Shown in pieces: positions 7,785-45,892 of a stretch of 59,026 bases of DNA. Under the pieces are notes generated by a model, which did not search any database, was not told the DNA's origin, and saw only the letters and a program-made list of their open reading frames with translations. The number at the start of each line of letters is the position of its first letter. Positions within the stretch are counted from its first letter, which is position 1. The position numbers and the translations under genes are program-made. This stretch comes from a virus: positions 1-59,026 of the IMG/VR virus record IMGVR_UViG_3300030520_000025; one strand, written 5' to 3'.

Positions 7785-7797
7785 CACTCAGGAGGTG
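7785..7797 (+). promoter_or_regulatory. Repeated ribosome-binding-site box, copy 1
   Basis: CACTCAGGAGGTG precedes the amidoligase start. The same 13 bases occur at 11132-11144 and 11634-11646 before two other genes. The shared flank (CACTC) shows conservation beyond the Shine-Dalgarno core. Confidence 0.75.
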
Positions 7798-7803
7798 GCG
7801 AAC

Positions 7804-9129
7804 ATGGATACACCCTTAGAAGTGTTGCATAGGGTAGTAGGTCAAGCGATAGCAGATGGCGCGCCGGTATTTGAGAATCAGCCGGTTGAGGATGAGATCG
7901 AGGAAGATGAGCCCGAAGTGGATCTCTGTAGTGTGTGTGATGAACCTCTAGACGATTGCACGTGTGCGGTTTGCTTAGGCCATCGTTACTTCAGTGGGTG
8001 CGAAGAGCGGTTTGATGGTTCGCCGTGCGAACGTTGCCAGAGGTGCCCGGATTGCTGCGAGTGCTATCACTGCGATGGGTGCGGTTCGCAGGTGGAGTAT
8101 GTTTGTTCGAATTGCGAGCAATGTGAGGATCAATGCTGCAGTTGCTATTCCTGCGAAGCGTGCGGCGAACGTTCTCAGTCCGCGACGTGCGGCGGTTGCG
8201 ATAGATGCAGCGATTGCTGCGAATGTGAGAGCAACTCCGAAGGTATGTATGAGGGGATGCTTCGCTTCCACTCTGCGCAGCGCAATCAATTCAAGATCAA
8301 TCCGTCCAAGCGTTTTATCTCTCTTGAGATCGAAGTAGCGGACGGCGACGCGGAATCCATGCATACCGTTGCGGGGGATTGGGCGGATTCGATTGTCGAG
8401 GATGGTTCGCTTCCGTCCTCGGGGTGGGAGATGAACCTAAACCCATCGCAGGGTGATGTATTCATTGACCATACAAACGAGGTTGCCGATGCGCTCAAGC
8501 GTGCTGGCGCGTCTGTCAGTCGCGCGTGCGGGATGCATTGCCACGTAGACGCGCGTGACTTCCAATGGTTCGACCTATTCAAGCTCTGCAAACTGTACGC
8601 GAAGATCGAAGGTGGAATGTTCGCGCTGGTATCGCCGTCGCGTCAAGGCAATCGCTACTGTGAAGAATCCGCACGCTCTTACACTTTCTCAGACTTCCGT
8701 ACCTTCAAGGCGGATCTTATTCGGTCACTGTACGGATGGACGCCACAAAAGGGGAAAAGGGTGCATACCGGCATGACGGGCGCGTCCAAGCGTGCGCACA
8801 AATGCTCGCACGGCACGCGCCGGGAGTTTTCGCAGCGGATGGACAAATACAATGGCGAGCGCTATCGCGCATTGAATCTCCACTCATTCTTCTATCGTGG
8901 AACAGTAGAGTTCCGCCACCATCACGGTACAGTCATAGCAGCGAAGATGCAGGGATGGGGAATGGTTTGCGCGTCCGTCCTAGATGCTGCGATGCGTATG
9001 AAAGTGTCGGATATCGAAGCATTGCCGATGGGTTGGGATGGGTTGCTCGCCATCCTGTCAACAGACTTACAATCTTGGGCGATTACGCGTCGCTCTGAAA
9101 TTCAAGACAAATGCAAAGGGGAAAACTAA
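7804..9129 (+). CDS. Amidoligase-family enzyme with Cys-rich zinc-knuckle N-terminus
   Basis: A 441-residue protein. Residues about 40-150 are a dense array of C-x2-C knuckles with repeats such as CPDCCECYHC and CSDCCEC, probably binding several zinc ions. Residues about 160-430 match the phage amidoligase (glutamine-synthetase-like COOH-NH2 ligase) family: FISLEIEVA, VEDGSLPSSGWEMNL, GMHCHVDARDF and GTVEFRHHHGT carry the conserved acidic, His and Arg residues. Such enzymes join a carboxylate to an amine using ATP. The substrate is unknown. The next gene is a class-II glutamine amidotransferase, a partnership described for this superfamily. The ATG at 7804 is spaced correctly from GGAGG. A GTG at 7795 overlaps that site and is unlikely. 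Confidence 0.85.
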   Translation: MDTPLEVLHRVVGQAIADGAPVFENQPVEDEIEEDEPEVDLCSVCDEPLDDCTCAVCLGHRYFSGCEERFDGSPCERCQRCPDCCECYHCDGCGSQVEYVCSNCEQCEDQCCSCYSCEACGERSQSATCGGCDRCSDCCECESNSEGMYEGMLRFHSAQRNQFKINPSKRFISLEIEVADGDAESMHTVAGDWADSIVEDGSLPSSGWEMNLNPSQGDVFIDHTNEVADALKRAGASVSRACGMHCHVDARDFQWFDLFKLCKLYAKIEGGMFALVSPSRQGNRYCEESARSYTFSDFRTFKADLIRSLYGWTPQKGKRVHTGMTGASKRAHKCSHGTRREFSQRMDKYNGERYRALNLHSFFYRGTVEFRHHHGTVIAAKMQGWGMVCASVLDAAMRMKVSDIEALPMGWDGLLAILSTDLQSWAITRRSEIQDKCKGEN

Positions 9130-9130
9130 T

Positions 9131-10102
9131 ATGTGCGGAATCGCAGGGTATTTCAGTCAAGGCAACAAACCGTCTACGGCAACGGCCGTAGCTATCGCCA
9201 TCCTCGCGCGCGAGATGGAGACGCGCGGAGATCATAGCTGGGGATGTACGGACGGGGAGATGGTCAATCGCAAGCTGGGGAAGATTAGCAAGGGGTTTGC
9301 CGTTCCGAAGCGTCTACCCTCTAACTTCACGCTACATACGCGATTCGCCACAACGGGGAAGGTCAAAGAGTCCAACTCTCACCCATTCGTCGTCCAACGC
9401 GAGGGAAGGATGGTCGTAGGGATGCACAACGGCATCATCTCAAACCATTCCACGCTCAATCAGAAGTATGGGAGAACGTGCCGCGTTGACTCCCAGCATA
9501 TCTTCGAAAACATCGCTTCGGGTTTCACGCTCAATGATCTTGAAGGATATGGAACCATCGTCTATCGAGATGCGGGAGAGTGGTATATCGGCACGTTCAA
9601 CGGTGGCGAGATAGCCATTGCTCAAACATCCGCCGGGATATTCTTTGCTTCCACCTTCAAAGCCTTAGACGGCGCGTTGCTCGCGGCTGGGTTGGAACCA
9701 TCGAAACGGGATCTACTCACGCAAGACGATACGATCTACAAGCTAACCCCAGCGGGTTTGGTGGTGGCGTATACCGTCAACGTAAAAGACTCATTCGCGC
9801 GCTGGGATGATGACTGGAAGCTCAAAAGCAAGTCGTGGGGTACCACGTTCGGTCCTATGGTGGAAACGTGCGAAACGTGCGGAGATTACCTTCCGCCGGA
9901 AGCGACGGGTTCACTTTGCCGCCACTGCGCAGCGTTCCAGCTTGACTGGGATACACAGGTAGTCCCGGAAGACATGTTCGCCAAGTGTGAAGATTGCGGA
10001 CTCAGGGTCGAAGCTGGCGAGGAAGTAGCAGTCTTAGGTGACACGTACCTGTGCATCGACTGCGCAACAAAGTACGACGACGCGGAGGTGAATGTCGCAT
10101 GA
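9131..10102 (+). CDS. Class-II glutamine amidotransferase (Ntn hydrolase) with zinc-ribbon tail
   Basis: A 323-residue protein beginning MCGIAGYF. Removal of Met leaves the catalytic Cys2 of class-II amidotransferases. The domain also shows LHTRFATTG and GMHNGIISNH (oxyanion and glutamine-binding region), ending near residue 220. Two C-terminal zinc ribbons follow (CETCGDYLP..CRHC and CEDCGLRV..CIDC). It should release ammonia from glutamine or act as a related amidohydrolase for the amidoligase encoded one base upstream. AAGGGGA precedes the ATG. There is no synthetase or isomerase domain, so it is not asparagine synthetase or GlmS. Confidence 0.88.
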   Translation: MCGIAGYFSQGNKPSTATAVAIAILAREMETRGDHSWGCTDGEMVNRKLGKISKGFAVPKRLPSNFTLHTRFATTGKVKESNSHPFVVQREGRMVVGMHNGIISNHSTLNQKYGRTCRVDSQHIFENIASGFTLNDLEGYGTIVYRDAGEWYIGTFNGGEIAIAQTSAGIFFASTFKALDGALLAAGLEPSKRDLLTQDDTIYKLTPAGLVVAYTVNVKDSFARWDDDWKLKSKSWGTTFGPMVETCETCGDYLPPEATGSLCRHCAAFQLDWDTQVVPEDMFAKCEDCGLRVEAGEEVAVLGDTYLCIDCATKYDDAEVNVA

Positions 10103-16770: not shown

Positions 16771-17391
16771 ATGACACCAGACCTCGAAGCCACTGCCGAC
16801 GCTGAAAGAGAGCGCGCCATCTTTTCCAAGCTCCGCTCGATCGACGACAACGAACGCCAGTCTCACGCACAGAAGGGCATCCTAGCCCGGGCCGTACGCG
16901 ACCAGATGCTGTGGAAGCACCGCGAGGACCCCGACACCAAAAAGCCGTGCAAGTCCTGGACCCGATGGTTGAGAATAGCTTGCCCGTTCTGCTACAGCAC
17001 CGTGCACAAGGCCTTGGCCGACGTCGAGGAGCTACGCGACATACCCGAGGAAGACTTGACGCAGATAGCCACTGGAAACTTCCCAACGCTGATCCAGCTA
17101 TCAACCGCCGTGCGCGCTGATCCTGAGGTATTGGATGCGGCAAAGAATAAACGCCCCGAGCAATTCAACGAGCACATCCGCCAGCACCATCCAGACCAGC
17201 ACATCGAATCACGCCAGCCGATGAAGTTCTCTCCCGAGTCATCTGCCGCGAAGGTTATCAATGAAGCGCTGGAAGCGGCAATGGAGCGCGGGGCGAGATC
17301 GAGGGATGAAGCTCTTGAGATGATCGCGGTGAACTTCATAGACGATTGCAGGATGGAAGCGGAGGTCGAGAGTGCCCACCAAACTACCTAA
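16771..17391 (+). CDS. Hypothetical helical protein of the replication block
   Basis: A 206-residue protein, mainly helical (LRSIDDNERQSHAQKGILAR, then KALADVEELRDIPEEDLTQI), possibly DNA binding. I chose the ATG at 16771 because GGAG lies seven bases upstream. An ATG at 16729 in the same frame overlaps the preceding stop and would add 14 residues (MIVVPHHPHLPETP). No family recognised. Confidence 0.65.
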   Translation: MTPDLEATADAERERAIFSKLRSIDDNERQSHAQKGILARAVRDQMLWKHREDPDTKKPCKSWTRWLRIACPFCYSTVHKALADVEELRDIPEEDLTQIATGNFPTLIQLSTAVRADPEVLDAAKNKRPEQFNEHIRQHHPDQHIESRQPMKFSPESSAAKVINEALEAAMERGARSRDEALEMIAVNFIDDCRMEAEVESAHQTT

Positions 17392-17710
17392 AGCTCTGTC
17401 TGAAGGTGAAGAGACTTTCCAGCTTCACTGCAAAATCTATAACCTCTCCCCCGAGCGCGAATTTTACTTCGCCAAGGATGAGGGGCGTCTCTGGAGATTT
17501 GATTTTGCGTGGCCGGATAAGAAGGTAGCTGCCGAAATCAACGGCGGGACATGGACGAACGGCCGGCACAATCGTGGCTCCTCGATGGCGAAGGAGTATG
17601 AAAAACTGAATCACGCAAGTTTGGGTGGATGGAGAGTCTTCCAATTCACAACTGAGACCGTGCAGAGCGGAAATGCCATCGATCTCATCGTTATGGCTTT
17701 GCAGGTATAA
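17372..17710 (+). CDS. PD-(D/E)XK-like phage endonuclease
   Basis: A 112-residue protein. LWRFDFAWPDKKVAAEINGG contains the Asp and the E-x-N active-site pair of a phage nuclease family related to VRR-Nuc and resolvases. GRHNRGSSMAKEYEKLNHA and GWRVFQFTTE follow, as usual in it. Probably a structure-specific endonuclease for replication or recombination intermediates. GTG start overlapping the upstream gene by 20 bases. Confidence 0.8.
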   Translation: MPTKLPKALSEGEETFQLHCKIYNLSPEREFYFAKDEGRLWRFDFAWPDKKVAAEINGGTWTNGRHNRGSSMAKEYEKLNHASLGGWRVFQFTTETVQSGNAIDLIVMALQV

Positions 17711-17711
17711 T

Positions 17712-17776
17712 GGGAGGGTCAGGTGTTGATCGCACCGGACAAGCCCAGCCGCCCAAGGAGCGACCGTGACCCTTCC
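17712..17776 (+). ncRNA. Structured leader of homing-type endonuclease gene, copy 1
   Basis: The outer helix pairs 17712-17721 with 17767-17776 (AGGGTCA/TGACCCT core, extended by G-T and G-C pairs). The inner hairpin is GGTG (17722-17725) and CACC (17733-17736) with a 7-base loop. The next 30 bases (17737-17766) are identical to 42164-42193 and contain the AAGGAG ribosome-binding site. The GTG start (17766-17768) lies at the edge of and inside the outer helix. Copy 2 keeps all helix positions with compensatory changes. Confidence 0.75.
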
Positions 17777-18290
17777 ACTCTTCCCATCCTATCGTGAAAT
17801 CTCTCTTACTAAAGGGCTCGTTGCCATCGTAGACCAATTCGACTTTGAACTTGTTTCAGTTCATCGTTGGTATGCGAAGTGGAGCGAGTGCACCCAATCC
17901 TTTTATGCCGCCACTAGCATTTCTGTTTCTGGAAAGTCTAAAACTTTGCGGATGCACCGGCTCATCTTGAGCATCTCAGATCCTCGTATTCTTTGCGATC
18001 ACGCGAATCAGGACACGCTAGATAATCGACGCAGCAATCTTAGAGTCGCCACTTATCAAGAAAACAACCGAAATCATCGTCTCAGGAAAGACAATCGCTC
18101 TGGATTTACGGGCGTGTGCTGGTTTTCTCCCAAAGCTAAGTGGAGAGCCTACGTCTACTTAGATGGAAAGCAAAAACATCTTGGGTACTTTACCGATGTG
18201 GGGGAAGCCAGGAAAGCGCAAGTAGCTGCCGCCAAAGAGTTGTATGGGGAATTCAAGCCTAGCGACATGATCGTTACGGCGCTGGGATGA
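17766..18290 (+). CDS. HNH homing-type endonuclease with AP2 domain
   Basis: A 174-residue protein. Residues about 60-105 are an HNH_3-like nuclease core (LRMHRLILS, CDHANQDTLDNRRSNLRVAT). Residues about 115-165 are an AP2 DNA-binding domain (SGFTGVCWFSPKAKWRAYVY, then KHLGYFTDVGEARKA). Such genes are mobile homing endonucleases. It sits between a nuclease gene and another HNH gene in the early operon. Translation probably depends on the structured leader that encloses its GTG start. Confidence 0.88.
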   Translation: MTLPLFPSYREISLTKGLVAIVDQFDFELVSVHRWYAKWSECTQSFYAATSISVSGKSKTLRMHRLILSISDPRILCDHANQDTLDNRRSNLRVATYQENNRNHRLRKDNRSGFTGVCWFSPKAKWRAYVYLDGKQKHLGYFTDVGEARKAQVAAAKELYGEFKPSDMIVTALG

Positions 18291-18562
18291 TAACCGTGGG
18301 CAAGCTAGGCATCGTGCGATGCACTGGAGACGATCTCACCAGCTTGCGCATTGAGTGCTTTGAGCGGGACGACTACCGCTGCGTGGACTGCGGGAGGACG
18401 GTGCGAGTGGACGCTCCTGAGTGGGCTGACAACCGCGCTCACATGGCCCACATCGAAGGCAGGGGTCGTGGCGGGTCTGACGTCATCACCAACGTCCACA
18501 CCAAGTGCCGCCGGTGCCATAGCGACCTTGAGCACAATCCGAAGTCAGTGCCAAAGAAATAG
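18287..18562 (+). CDS. HNH endonuclease
   Basis: A 91-residue protein: CVDCGRTVRVDAPEW, AHMAHIEGRGRGGSDVITN and CRRCHSDLEHN form the HNH core with two zinc-binding Cys pairs. ATGA overlap with the HNH-AP2 gene. A small free-standing HNH nuclease such as this may act in packaging or as a mobile nicking enzyme. With no terminase gene nearby, the latter is likelier. Confidence 0.82.
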   Translation: MITVGKLGIVRCTGDDLTSLRIECFERDDYRCVDCGRTVRVDAPEWADNRAHMAHIEGRGRGGSDVITNVHTKCRRCHSDLEHNPKSVPKK

Positions 18563-40814: not shown

Positions 40815-41744
40815 TCAATAATACTCTACCCACAATCCTAGAGAAGTAATCGCTCCGCTACCGCCCACAATCAGCTCGTAATAATTCCCGCTTGGCACGA
40901 GGAACCCAAAGCCAGCCTTGCCACCACTGACGGACGCGGTGTACTCGTTTCCCCAGCCCACTGTGACAGGCGGGGTTACAGTGTCCACAAGCGCCGTCAG
41001 ATCGCTCGTAAAGCCGCCAGCCGTGCCGCCGTAGCCAGAAACCCACATGTCAACCCCAGTCGTGTTGTGATAGATAGTTGCGTACGCCCGAGAGCCTGTG
41101 ACGTCGTGCCTTGTTTTCCCTCCACCACCCCCGCCTGTGGAGTTCACGGTGACAGCGCCAACCCCCGAAGATGGAGAGATGGTGACGTTGGTTCCCGCGA
41201 CGATGGAAGTCACCCCGCCCGCCGTCGATCCCGGCGACTCCGCCCAGAAGTTCAGCCCGTCGAAGTAGACCGTCACCCAGCTACCTGCGGGGAGGGTAAG
41301 GTTGGCGTTGCCGTTGATGATTCCCTGCGCTGGAGTTACCGTCACGGTACTCGTGCCCGCGTTGGAGATGCTGGTGAACCATGGGAGGGTTACAGACGCG
41401 TTCAGCGTCACTGCGATGGGCGAGACCGCCCCGAGAACGATGAGCGCCCCGTCGTCGGTCTGTTGCGTCCCGTAGGCCACTACGCCCGTTTGGTTGTTCA
41501 CGACCCCGCCCGATACGGTAGTGTTGATGATGGTGACGGTCTCAGATGCGCCAGAACTTCCCGAACTTGCTGCCGATTGCGCCGTCTTCACCGTGGTAAT
41601 ACCCGCCGAGAGAGCGGCCACGGCCTGATTCAAGTCCGTGATGCTGTTGTCGTGGCTATGGATGGCGGCCACGATCGCAGGGTGCGCGGCGGCGGGCGGA
41701 ATGAGGTTCGGGCGCCGGAATGACGGGACTAGGGGGTTGCTCAT
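40815..41744 (-). CDS. Tail or fibre-type structural protein
   Basis: A 309-residue protein. An N-terminal helical segment (DNSITDLNQAVAALSAGI) like a fibre trimerisation coil, then beta-rich domains (ALIVLGAVSPIAVTLNASV, VTSIVAGTNVTISPSSGVGA), a Gly-rich hinge and a compact C-terminal domain. The layout is that of a short tail fibre or adaptor. ATGA overlap with the upstream gene. Confidence 0.65.
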   Translation of the reverse strand: MSNPLVPSFRRPNLIPPAAAHPAIVAAIHSHDNSITDLNQAVAALSAGITTVKTAQSAASSGSSGASETVTIINTTVSGGVVNNQTGVVAYGTQQTDDGALIVLGAVSPIAVTLNASVTLPWFTSISNAGTSTVTVTPAQGIINGNANLTLPAGSWVTVYFDGLNFWAESPGSTAGGVTSIVAGTNVTISPSSGVGAVTVNSTGGGGGGKTRHDVTGSRAYATIYHNTTGVDMWVSGYGGTAGGFTSDLTALVDTVTPPVTVGWGNEYTASVSGGKAGFGFLVPSGNYYELIVGGSGAITSLGLWVEYY

Positions 41745-42118
41745 CCACCACCGCCTTCCACGCCGAATATCTGAATCTCGTGATACGCATCTTCACTTCC
41801 CCAGCTTTTTCCAAAACAGATGCAACCATCCAAGTACACCTGAAGCGCGGGGTCTGCCGAGACGAACTGCAACTGCAAAAGCTTCCACTTGTTCGCCAGC
41901 GGGCGAGTCCAGTACTTCGTGATTTTTCCGCCGGTGGCAGGGAGGGTGATCGTTGGGAAGCCGTAGCTGCCGTTGCCCACGTCCGCCGCGATGCCAGTCA
42001 GCGCCACGGGGAGCAGTGAACTGTACTCAAGAACGAGTTGACCGCAGTGCGTGTAGCCCTTGCCTCCCAGCGCCGCTGCGACGACCGTAGCTGTAGCAGT
42101 CTCTGCGCCTACAGGCAT
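41741..42118 (-). CDS. Structural protein, jelly-roll-like
   Basis: A 125-residue protein with beta-rich sequence (THCGQLVLEYSSLLPVALTG, KLLQLQFVSADPALQVYLDG) and a Gly-rich end. Probably a small virion protein. GGAGG lies directly before the ATG. A homing-type endonuclease gene is inserted just upstream on the other strand. Confidence 0.6.
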   Translation of the reverse strand: MPVGAETATATVVAAALGGKGYTHCGQLVLEYSSLLPVALTGIAADVGNGSYGFPTITLPATGGKITKYWTRPLANKWKLLQLQFVSADPALQVYLDGCICFGKSWGSEDAYHEIQIFGVEGGGG

Positions 42119-42139
42119 ACCGCCTCCAGTGATAGAATA

Positions 42140-42202
42140 AAGGGGTCAGGCGTTACTAGCGCCGGACAAGCCCAGCCGCCCAAGGAGCGACCGTGACCCC
42201 TT
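42140..42202 (+). ncRNA. Structured leader of homing-type endonuclease gene, copy 2
   Basis: The outer helix pairs 42140-42148 with 42194-42202 (AAGGGGTCA/TGACCCCTT). The inner hairpin is GGCG (42149-42152) and CGCC (42160-42163) with a 7-base loop. Bases 42164-42193 are identical to copy 1. Relative to copy 1, an A-T pair becomes G-C in the outer helix and a T-A pair becomes C-G in the inner one. The GTG start is at 42193-42195. Confidence 0.75.
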
Positions 42203-42768
42203 CCCCTCATCTTATCGAAAAACAATGCACGGCATGCTTCGAGACTCTTCCTTTGTCTAGTTTTTGGAAGAGAGCCGACATGCGATCTGGATATGCAAGT
42301 GGATGTAAAGCTTGCGCAACTATCAAAAAGAAACTCTACCGCCCGAACTGCGATAAGGGGAAATATGCGGCTTTGAAAGACAGGAAGGGCCCCGAGTGGT
42401 CGAAGCAGAATATACGAAGAATTGGTTTCTCTAAATTCAAGGTCAACCAAGCTTGGTACGAAGAAAAGCTTGCATCTCAAGACGGTAAGTGCGCAATATG
42501 TGGATCGGAATCCAATCATCAGCGGTGGGCGCGCTTTTGCATCGACCATAACCACGAGTGTTGCCCCAAGCATACTGCTTGCGAAAAGTGCCGCAGGGGT
42601 CTGCTTTGTCACCGCTGTAACATCCGCCTCGGCATGATCGAGGACTCCGAGTGGATCGCTAAAGCTCTTGCATACTTGGTGCGCCACAATAAAGACCTCT
42701 CAGTTGCTTTTGCTCAACTTCCTAGCTTTCTTACTGTCCCATCGGAGCAGCCGCACAGCAAGCCTTGA
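42193..42768 (+). CDS. Endonuclease VII-like (recombination endonuclease) homing gene
   Basis: A 191-residue protein. The N-terminal zinc motif (CTACFETLPLSSFWKRADMR, GCKAC) is followed by an endonuclease VII core: KCAICGSESNHQ, FCIDHNHECC, RRGLLCHRCNIRLGMIEDS. It is encoded on the plus strand inside the leftward structural operon, overlapping the 3' end of the nozzle-like gene by 55 bases, as expected for a mobile insertion. Its start is in the structured leader. Confidence 0.87.
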   Translation: MTPSPHLIEKQCTACFETLPLSSFWKRADMRSGYASGCKACATIKKKLYRPNCDKGKYAALKDRKGPEWSKQNIRRIGFSKFKVNQAWYEEKLASQDGKCAICGSESNHQRWARFCIDHNHECCPKHTACEKCRRGLLCHRCNIRLGMIEDSEWIAKALAYLVRHNKDLSVAFAQLPSFLTVPSEQPHSKP

Positions 42769-45764
42769 ACTCCTTGGCTTTCGTTTGAAGTTCGCGAGGT
42801 TACGGGCGGAGTGTACGTGTCCCATATCCATCCCGCCCCTATTTCCTCAAACACTAAGGAGTGGAACTCTCCGTCTATACCCATAAAGTCGTAATAAAGA
42901 TAGCCGTTCTGGTAGCTAAATTTCTGAAGAGAAGGCTGGGTGTCGTCCGGTGGAACTATATCAATCCCATTGCGCGTTATGATCTGCGGAGTGCTCCCCT
43001 CGTGGGGAAATAGCGGGTAGATAGATTGATCGGTGATCGACTGCGAGGCCTGTCCACCCGCAGAGACGTGTATTCCATCCGCCACGCGGAAGAAGATGTT
43101 TCCGCCACCCGAGACGGCCAAGCATCGCGGGATGAATAGACCACGCGTGATGCCCGTCTCCTGCAGGCTCCACGTAGAACCCACCGTGCCCGTTGCGGTT
43201 GCCAGCGCATTGTAGAAGTTCGGGACGATGAGCCAAGCGCGCTTATCGGAGAACAGCACGCCGCTGCCGCCGCTCATGCATCCGTTCACCAGGGCTTCGT
43301 TAGGGTCGGTCACGTCCTGCTGGTTCGTGTCGGGAGCCGAGTCTAGATTCGATCCCTCGCACCAGTAGAGCGTCCCCGGTCGCAGCGGGTCTCCCACGCC
43401 GTAGATAAAGTTGATGTTGTCCGTCGGGCCAAATAGGTACGGCAGGGGCTGCGCTGCCAGAATAGGCTCGTTGATGACGTAGACCAGATTCGCTCCGTCG
43501 GGCACGCCGGGGATGAGCATCTGCGTTGTCGAGGTGGGCCGCGCAATCATCGTGTATGCCAGACCCGTAGGGGAGCCGATTGTGATGACCGTGCCGCCCA
43601 GCCATCGAGGGTTGAAGCCCGTCGCCGTGCCGCCGATGGCTCCGCCGCTTACCCACGTCAGAACGCCGCCAGAACTATTTAGGGTGCCCTTCTGCGGGAG
43701 GTCGATGGACGGGAACGGCTCGTAGTTGTCGAAGCTCAGGAGTTCATTGCTGAGCTCCGTGTCCGTAAGCGAGTCCACGATTGGCGTGTTCGTTCCACCG
43801 CCCCCGAGGTTGTCGTTGGGGCCGGTGGCGACGTAGGTGAAGTTCGACGTGGACTGATCTAGCCGCCAGTAATCTACAAGGTCGATCTGCGGGTCGGGAG
43901 ACCAGAGCGACGTGACCGTGTTCGACGCAACAGGAAGAGATAGCGGCGCGGACTCAGGAGATGGGTTCGACTGCGCGCCGGTGGCGGATGAGCGGTAGGT
44001 GTAGCGGTACTGGACTTCGACGCGGGTATTCGCCGCGCCGGGGCCGATGATGCCGACCGCCCCGCCGGCGGTAGATGAAGCCTCAAGCAACAGGATGCGG
44101 CCCAGCCGATACCAGTAGTCGTAGTCGATTTCGATGCCGTACGTTCCCGCAGACGCAAAGCTCACGACCACCGTTGTTTTCGCGTAGTTGTTATCGTTTC
44201 CCGACGTATAGTTTTGGCGCGGGAGTAGTGGGTAGCCATTGACAACGGTGATCGTTTGCCCGAAGTCCGACTTCGCGGTGCCAGAGCCTTCGCCCACCCC
44301 TCCGACGGTCGCAGATATGAGCGTTGCTCCCTCAATGCCCCAGATGCAGTCATCGTGATTCGTCAGAACGAAGGTGTAGTTTCCTGCCGATGGGACGTAG
44401 AGGCTTCCGTAGAGACAGAAGTTGAAATTCGATGTCTGCGTTGGGGAAACTGAGATGGTGCCAGCTACAGAGTCGTCCGGGTTGAGCTGGTTCCACACCA
44501 TCGCAGTGGTTCCCGTTCCTATGCCGGGGGTCGACGGTATTCCTGCGGTGAATGTGGCGTCGAAGATGAACGAGTTTCCCGAAAGCGAGTTTACCGCCGT
44601 GGAAGTCGTGCGCGGGGTGCCGCCGCCAGGGTCGCCCGGGTTGCACCAGATATACGCGCCGGTCGGGCCTGATGTCGGAGAGTCCTGAAAGAGCGCCAGC
44701 GTTAGGTTACCTATCAGCCCCATCGTCGGGGAGAGAGCATCGATAGTGACCGTAGCGCCCAGAGCAAAACTTCCCGAGTTCGCGGAGAACGTGTTGCCGG
44801 TCGAGTTGATGCCGACTTGGAAGGTAAACGCCCCCGAAGGAACAGTGATCGGCGTACCAATCGAACCGCCGACGTCCACCACTGATGGAACGAACTTCGG
44901 AGCCACACCCGCGGGCATGACGTTTCCAGACGCATCGCAGAACGCTCCGGTGACGACCGTAGCCGAGGCGGGAGTGCCACCGGTGCCTGCGATTTGAATG
45001 TAGTGACCTGGGTTCGTGCTTACGCCCGTGGAAGGCCCCGTGGAGGTCGGCGTCTTGCTGCCGCCGTTGATCGTCGCCGTACCAGTCAGCGAGTTGATCG
45101 TGACCGTCGTGGCGTTCTGCACGTTGATAACGAAAGGTGCCGTGCCGTCCGGCGTGGGGCTCGGGTAGCCGTTAGTCTCGCCGAAGTTGAAACTCGGGTT
45201 CGCCCCGGCGAAGTTCGTCCATGGGATTGCCGTCGCCAGCAACGTTCCGGAGACGGTTGTTGACGAGTTTTGCGTGCTCACCACGGGCGCAAGTTGCGGT
45301 TCCTTGACGCCCGTCTTATAGATCGTTCCATCGGAGCGCACCTTGACCTGCCCAAAGCAGCTAAACGTCGTGGCGTCCCCGCTGTAGAGCGAGTGGGTGA
45401 TGATCGTGACCGCTTCCGAGTTATCCCCGATGTACTCCCACGGCTGGACAGACGTGTTCGGACGGAACGGGATCATGGACGGCGGGTTGCCGCTCAATCC
45501 CGTGGCGATGAGGGTTGCGTTGTTGTAAAGCGACGTCCCCGCCGCAATGATTGTGGTGTAGCCCGAAGAAGGACCCGCGGGTGTCGAGTCATTAAGCCTA
45601 TCCAGAGCGATGATGATGCCCGAGACGGTAATGATGGCGTCCGTCAGCAGGTTGCGTAGCATGAACCCACCCGACAAATATGCTCGGATGTTGATCCCGA
45701 GCGCCACAAAGCCAGCCTTCAATCTATTAATTGGGTTGGTGAGATCCAAGCCGCGTAGATTCAT
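42714..45764 (-). CDS. Tail-nozzle-like protein with PA14-like insert
   Basis: A 1016-residue protein. The C-terminal third (DKRAWLIVPNFYNAL, GNIFFRVADGIHVSAGGQ, CGCSDGTVRKLGS) has the repeated layout of the beta-propeller tail nozzle or stabilising proteins of short-tailed phages. Residues about 440-560 resemble a PA14 domain (CLYGSLYVPSAGNYTFVLTN, YGIEIDYDYWYRLGRI), a carbohydrate-binding module. The ATG at 45764 overlaps the upstream stop (ATGA). The 3' end overlaps an inserted endonuclease gene. Confidence 0.6.
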   Translation of the reverse strand: MNLRGLDLTNPINRLKAGFVALGINIRAYLSGGFMLRNLLTDAIITVSGIIIALDRLNDSTPAGPSSGYTTIIAAGTSLYNNATLIATGLSGNPPSMIPFRPNTSVQPWEYIGDNSEAVTIITHSLYSGDATTFSCFGQVKVRSDGTIYKTGVKEPQLAPVVSTQNSSTTVSGTLLATAIPWTNFAGANPSFNFGETNGYPSPTPDGTAPFVINVQNATTVTINSLTGTATINGGSKTPTSTGPSTGVSTNPGHYIQIAGTGGTPASATVVTGAFCDASGNVMPAGVAPKFVPSVVDVGGSIGTPITVPSGAFTFQVGINSTGNTFSANSGSFALGATVTIDALSPTMGLIGNLTLALFQDSPTSGPTGAYIWCNPGDPGGGTPRTTSTAVNSLSGNSFIFDATFTAGIPSTPGIGTGTTAMVWNQLNPDDSVAGTISVSPTQTSNFNFCLYGSLYVPSAGNYTFVLTNHDDCIWGIEGATLISATVGGVGEGSGTAKSDFGQTITVVNGYPLLPRQNYTSGNDNNYAKTTVVVSFASAGTYGIEIDYDYWYRLGRILLLEASSTAGGAVGIIGPGAANTRVEVQYRYTYRSSATGAQSNPSPESAPLSLPVASNTVTSLWSPDPQIDLVDYWRLDQSTSNFTYVATGPNDNLGGGGTNTPIVDSLTDTELSNELLSFDNYEPFPSIDLPQKGTLNSSGGVLTWVSGGAIGGTATGFNPRWLGGTVITIGSPTGLAYTMIARPTSTTQMLIPGVPDGANLVYVINEPILAAQPLPYLFGPTDNINFIYGVGDPLRPGTLYWCEGSNLDSAPDTNQQDVTDPNEALVNGCMSGGSGVLFSDKRAWLIVPNFYNALATATGTVGSTWSLQETGITRGLFIPRCLAVSGGGNIFFRVADGIHVSAGGQASQSITDQSIYPLFPHEGSTPQIITRNGIDIVPPDDTQPSLQKFSYQNGYLYYDFMGIDGEFHSLVFEEIGAGWIWDTYTPPVTSRTSNESQGVQGLLCGCSDGTVRKLGS

Positions 45765-45892
45765 CGTGGCACCACCACGCCGTCTTTTACCTGCCACTTC
45801 GCAGCGCACGCAGAGCATAGGCCACCCGATGGCACGGAGGCATTATGCGCCCCGCACCGCAAGCAGCGCCGTTCTGTGATCTGGATAGCCAC
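45761..45892 (-). CDS. Small zinc-ribbon protein, 43 residues
   Basis: RRCLRCGAHNASVPSGGLCS and ACAAKW give a four-Cys ribbon. The GTG shares a base with the upstream stop (TAGTG) and the stop overlaps the next ATG (ATGA). Function unknown. Confidence 0.65.
   Translation of the reverse strand: MAIQITERRCLRCGAHNASVPSGGLCSACAAKWQVKDGVVVPR

Follow-up and report, generated by a model that had tools for sequence, protein, structure and literature searches.

Why should two nuclease genes of different families, in the same virus, be preceded by one and the same structured leader? The question is raised by IMG/VR virus record IMGVR_UViG_3300030520_000025, of which positions 1 to 59,026 (59,026 nt) constitute the window analysed here. 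One leader lies at 17712-17776 (copy 1) and the other at 42139-42203 (copy 2); their features are collected in Table 1. A preliminary description of the sequence had placed them at 17712-17776 and 42140-42202: the first location holds, and the second is corrected here.

Table 1. Features of the two leaders, and of the genes next to them, in the window.
Feature	Positions	Strand
-10 box TATAAT, copy 1	17706..17711	+
5′ arm of closing helix P1, copy 1; inferred +1 = G17718	17712..17721	+
P2 hairpin (GGTG..CACC plus U.G), copy 1	17722..17736	+
Conserved GGACAAGCC, possible mini-hairpin P2b, copy 1	17737..17745	+
P3 hairpin with SD AAGGAG (17755-17760), copy 1	17750..17762	+
GTG start and 3′ arm of P1, copy 1	17766..17776	+
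HNH endonuclease gene, HNH-AP2 type (HNH_3; phrog_99)	17766..18290	+
-10 box TAGAAT, extended (TGA before), copy 2	42133..42138	+
5′ arm of P1, copy 2; inferred +1 = G42145	42139..42148	+
P2 hairpin, copy 2	42149..42163	+
Conserved GGACAAGCC, copy 2	42164..42172	+
P3 hairpin with SD AAGGAG (42182-42187), copy 2	42177..42189	+
GTG start and 3′ arm of P1, copy 2	42193..42203	+
Endonuclease VII gene	42193..42768	+
Tail-region gene interrupted by the copy 2 cassette, N-terminal part	42714..45818	-
C-terminal part of the split tail-region gene; own SD (GGAGG) at the cassette edge	41741..42118	-

The two leaders of the window

Comparison by blastn of the 1.7-kb regions around the two copies gives a single alignment, of 69 bp with 88.4% identity, which coincides exactly with the leader. 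The two leaders of common layout reported at these loci are thus confirmed (69 bp at 88%). The products encoded downstream, an HNH endonuclease and an endonuclease VII, give no protein alignment with each other, in agreement with their assignment to different families. Yet the two window leaders are closer to each other than to any other copy, despite the unrelated proteins. A 24-mer core occurs twice in the window, against no occurrence in 100 shuffles, even when three mismatches are allowed.

The run that is identical in both leaders extends over about 38 bases; it had been noticed before, with a length of 30 bases that was too short. The copies differ only in the P2 loop and in two base pairs which are altered on both sides, from A-T to G-C in the outer helix and from T-A to C-G in the inner one. 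Both compensatory changes, already proposed from the sequence, are real.

A family of leaders in virus records

The searches establish the element as a genuine RNA family, and as an expression module that is mobile. It is present in at least 32 IMG/VR virus records, from uncultured phages, as at least 35 distinct copies; these counts are lower bounds, the family being larger than the copies listed. The preliminary description had proposed a search for covarying copies elsewhere, whose absence would have refuted its interpretation; they were found in at least 32 virus records.

Exact patterns of 22-25 bases retrieve no copy outside the window. The first copies in IMG/VR were obtained with gapped patterns (L009, L010, L013, L027, L030, L036, L038, L046 and L050), and a covariance model built from nine leaders led to diverged copies in the same phages. 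A relaxed pattern together with the first covariance model yielded more than 20 further copies, the weakest accepted one scoring 33.8 bits with the first model and the next match less than 20 bits. A second covariance model matches 32 of the 34 records searched and added two copies; the two records in which it finds no match are cultured Tunturi phages.

In Rfam, no family matches the element at the gathering score, and the best permissive matches are chance ones to microRNA and snoRNA models. When four leaders are compared by BLASTN with 50,697 phage records (GenBank phages), the outcome is either nothing or chance-level matches. The GTDB genomes were searched with a strict pattern of the GGACAAG form only, which gives 31 matches, none of them with the surrounding structure. 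None of the loci related by the HNH protein was confirmed, and the three loci found to be related by the endonuclease VII all lack the leader. No report of the element was found in the literature, limited to open-licence papers.

Nuclease partners

Every copy stands before a nuclease gene or a nuclease-like remnant, and several unrelated families are represented; the preliminary description had suggested looking for matches at the starts of HNH or endonuclease VII genes. The downstream genes encode HNH-AP2, other HNH, endonuclease VII, DUF559/Vsr-like or PDDEXK_5 proteins, or are remnants. The assignment relies on Pfam/PHROG matches for the genes downstream of 15 copies; the remaining genes were assigned by inspection, from their similarity to those 15 or as nuclease-like remnants. 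The term "homing-type" used here rests on the nuclease family, and there are no data on homing itself. The nearest relative of a leader often stands before a different class of nuclease. As judged from sequence comparison, unrelated nuclease genes share and exchange the element.

Some leaders stand before decayed nuclease genes of which 37-89 codons are left (L009 3301-3570; L185; L289; L351 1692-1757), which suggests that such genes are gained and then decay in a homing life cycle.

Secondary structure and covariation

The RNA is closed by a helix of 9-10 bp, P1, whose 3′ arm contains the start codon. The preliminary description was right about this outer helix, except for its extent, given as seven pairs. 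P1 encloses a hairpin of 4-6 pairs (P2), a short conserved GGNNAAGCC element and a third helix (P3), which carries the SD in its loop or arm and is reduced to CGC/GCG in the window, compared to 4-6 bp in relatives. The GG/CC of GGNNAAGCC could pair in 32-33 of 33 copies (possible P2b), according to counts made with a structure string that misplaced P1 and that was used nowhere else. The GGNNAAGCC element is not invariant, since one diverged copy, in G031, has GGUUCUAACC.

Among 33 distinct copies, 94.0% of the cells are paired (80.9 in shuffles), 14 of 18 pairs are altered on both sides (6.9 in shuffles), the cells altered on both sides number 71 (18.2 in shuffles) and the covariation score is 0.362, compared to 0.132 in shuffles. 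Sliding the partners destroys the signal: no slid structure is more than 55% paired. The 33-row alignment (A3) was fitted to the covariance model and its rows are related, so the shuffle counts are not probabilities. RNAalifold recovers the same helices from ten sequences when no structure is supplied. When single sequences are folded by energy, the outer helix is recovered, but neither P2 nor P3; the fold therefore rests on covariation and comparison.

The outer pairs of P1 use GC, UA, AU, CG and G.U, and codons 2-3 consequently vary in step with them (MTP, MTT, MTN, MTS). In all nine first copies, the fifth pair of P2 is U.G or C.A by inspection. The sequences AAGCCU and GUC/GAC are conserved beyond what pairing requires. 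Pairing of the P2 loop with GGACAAG in a pseudoknot was also envisaged, but inspection showed that the loops do not vary with GGACAAG, and the idea was abandoned. That the 3′ arm of the covarying P1 holds the start codon is supported in the aligned copies by computation and covariation, without any experiment.

A promoter-like box in a fixed register

A TATAAT-like box is located at -12 to -7 relative to the invariant (G/A)UC of P1. This box was part of no search pattern, nor of the model (R1) that found the copies. The mean match to TATAAT is 4.45/6 at -12, compared to about 1.6 at other offsets. A match of at least 5/6 occurs within one base of this place in 26 of the 33 copies (mean of 0.9 and maximum of 5 in shuffles), and exactly at -12 to -7 in 21 of them. 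No -35 element rises above background in the aligned copies. The conservation of the element has a sharp onset at -12 and declines some 11 bases past the start codon, i.e., about four codons into the gene. In copy 1, the box contains the TAA (17708-17710) that terminates the upstream gene 17372-17710; in many copies, the stop of a same-strand upstream gene falls at -8 to -20.

The standard sigma-70 spacing puts the start of transcription at the G/A of (G/A)UC. It is inferred, the start being unmapped, that an RNA made from this promoter would begin inside the closing helix, without the covarying outer 5′ arm. The element's own transcript would then lack the 5′ sides of the outer P1 pairs (-1 to -6), and yet these pairs covary strongly, so their pairing could be selected only in transcripts initiated upstream. 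This argues for a read-through lock, provided that the box is indeed a promoter, which is itself inferred.

Insertion sites and phage lineages

The endonuclease VII cassette of copy 2 splits a tail-region gene of the window. The two halves of this gene form a single uninterrupted frame in four relatives (G009, G022, G030 and G031), which thus present the empty site. The cassette is antisense to the neighbouring genes, and its new junctions provide a stop for one half and an SD with an ATG for the other. Leader-bearing cassettes are also found near these tail genes, at another place than in the window, with an endonuclease VII in G022 and G011 and a remnant in G031. No comparable empty site was identified for copy 1. 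A separate observation concerns the homologue of the tail gene in G009 (L353 327-1624), which has about 1.3 kb extra between the equivalents of window residues 978 and 987.

Related terminases are found in six member records and, distantly, in the Tunturi phages of Acidobacteriota. No terminase match was obtained in large member contigs such as G005, G019, G021 and G023, although these contigs may be incomplete; the element is therefore probably not limited to one phage lineage. The cultured Tunturi phages, which are kin by their terminase, have a related HNH gene and no leader: in Tunturi_1 (L297 1354-1470), a cultured acidobacterial phage, the related HNH-AP2 gene is antisense and lacks it.

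A proposed read-through lock and the alternatives

The -10 box beside the 5′ arm, the third helix and the insertion of a cassette into the tail-region gene are missing from the preliminary description. They turn its idea of a shared RNA that sequesters the start codon into a specific model, a read-through lock. That idea is itself supported, as the closing helix includes the start codon in all aligned copies, but the repression is inferred. We consider it fairly probable that the element is such a lock, acting as a portable module for the expression of homing-type nuclease genes. The proposal builds on homology, covariation, box position, nuclease association and tail-gene insertion, which the analysis does show; the start of transcription, the repression of read-through RNA and the timing are inferred.

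The module would consist of about 80 bases of DNA comprising the -10 box, a branched 5′ RNA (P1, P2, GGNNAAGCC and P3 with the SD) and the start codon, placed inside the 3′ arm of P1; it would end at about codon 4. Transcripts entering from upstream phage genes would possess the whole 5′ arm and form the 9-10 bp P1, which would hide the start codon and prevent production of the nuclease. Those initiated at its own promoter would begin at (G/A)UC, retain the inner 3-4 pairs of P1 and be translatable. The module may be shared and exchanged by unrelated nuclease genes because it would insulate them from any locus where they insert.

The computed cost of opening the ribosome footprint is on average 13.5 kcal/mol in the read-through RNA compared to 8.1 in the own-start RNA, and it is higher for the former in 32 of 33 copies; it drops to 10.7 when outer arms are swapped between copies. 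For the own-start RNA of either window copy, the prediction leaves the start codon mostly paired (unpaired probability of 0.03 and 0.00), which implies that any switch would be graded. Other observations count against the lock. As no -35 element stands out, the TATAAT box might depend on a phage factor, or might have no promoter function, and read-through is less obvious for copy 2, antisense to its neighbours. Simple sequestration has no need for the conservation of GGNNAAGCC. Finally, the aligned rows are all related and alignment A3 is fitted to the model.

The conservation of AAGCCU and GUC/GAC beyond the demands of pairing could be accounted for by the main rival of the lock, a switch RNA, whose core (GGNNAAGCC, P2 and P3 with the SD) would bind either a small molecule or a protein of phage or host origin, and gate the start site, so that one signal would time every nuclease carrying the module. 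The position of the SD in a hairpin loop and a branched fold more elaborate than the single hairpins of T4 point in the same direction. However, GGNNAAGCC is variable (GGUUCUAACC in G031), no riboswitch of Rfam matches, and the outer P1 pairs are explained by the promoter register without any ligand; we regard such a switch as unlikely, if still worth keeping in mind. That unrelated homing nucleases exchange one mobile RNA module equipped with a conserved sensing core, one phage or host signal timing them all, likewise seems doubtful to us. If true, it would mean that a transferable cis-regulatory RNA defines a class of selfish genes irrespective of protein family.

The fold could also be constitutive, protecting the 5′ end of the mRNA or presenting the SD for a low and steady translation, read-through and own transcripts being then equivalent. 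We give little credence to this reading: P2 and P3 do remain near the 5′ end of the own-start RNA, but it explains neither the covariation of pairs whose 5′ side is upstream of the inferred start nor the fixed distance of the promoter box. It is very improbable that the element acts at the DNA level, as an inverted repeat serving as recognition or insertion site of mobile genes, even if its sharp boundaries and its location at gene junctions are compatible with this role. Indeed, it is complementarity rather than sequence that is conserved, with G.U pairs in P1 and a recurrent change from U.G to C.A in P2, and the element is common to unrelated nucleases.

Comparison with known systems

In phage T4, the early and middle transcripts of I-TevI form a stable structure in which the ribosome-binding site is hidden, and the position of a late promoter keeps this structure from forming in late transcripts; comparable arrangements have been reported for I-TevII, I-TevIII, segB and Aeh1 mobE (PMC2988022, PMC3014915). 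Like these leaders, the element precedes nuclease genes of homing type and has a helix that would hide the translation start in long transcripts; if the -10 box is a promoter, short transcripts from it, without the 5′ part of the structure, would escape as they do for I-TevI. T4-type leaders are described as individual structures on particular genes, whereas the element is a branched RNA whose homologous copies, conserved in sequence and at a fixed spacing from the promoter-like box, are common to HNH, endonuclease VII, DUF559 and PDDEXK_5 genes in other phages. The resemblance is one of anatomy and should be taken as an analogy only, in the absence of sequence comparison or evidence of descent.

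The start regions of T4 genes e, soc and 49, the latter encoding endonuclease VII, also lie within RNA helices, and late promoters of gene e give transcripts without the 5′ strand (PMC3014915, PMC2988022). Unlike the element, these leaders belong to single genes and have not been shown to be mobile or common to several protein families. The homing gene mobE of Aeh1, which has an RNA structure that hides its ribosome-binding site, splits nrdA into two reading frames (PMC2988022). Copy 2 differs from it in being an endonuclease VII cassette, inserted in antisense into a tail-region gene and equipped with a shared module. HEARO RNAs are structured RNAs found beside HNH-type genes. Their likeness to the element lies in this proximity; no Rfam family matched the element.

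What seems new is a homologous, branched and portable RNA with a fixed promoter register, carried by unrelated nuclease families. The scattered T4 trick thereby gains a conserved, searchable RNA family, and regulatory DNA is seen to move between unrelated selfish genes. In phage metagenomes, the element can serve as a marker for genes of homing type, whatever their nuclease family; the read-through lock can be tested directly with compensatory mutants.

Neighbouring genes in the window

The gene that directly precedes copy 1 (17372-17710, + strand) matches phrog_503, which also weakly matches a DUF559 nuclease of the element family (L191); it is possibly another nuclease. A small second HNH gene (18287-18562, + strand) directly follows the HNH-AP2 gene and overlaps it. 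Farther away, at 7795-10102 on the + strand, amidoligase-like and glutamine amidotransferase-like genes are neighbours and overlap each other.
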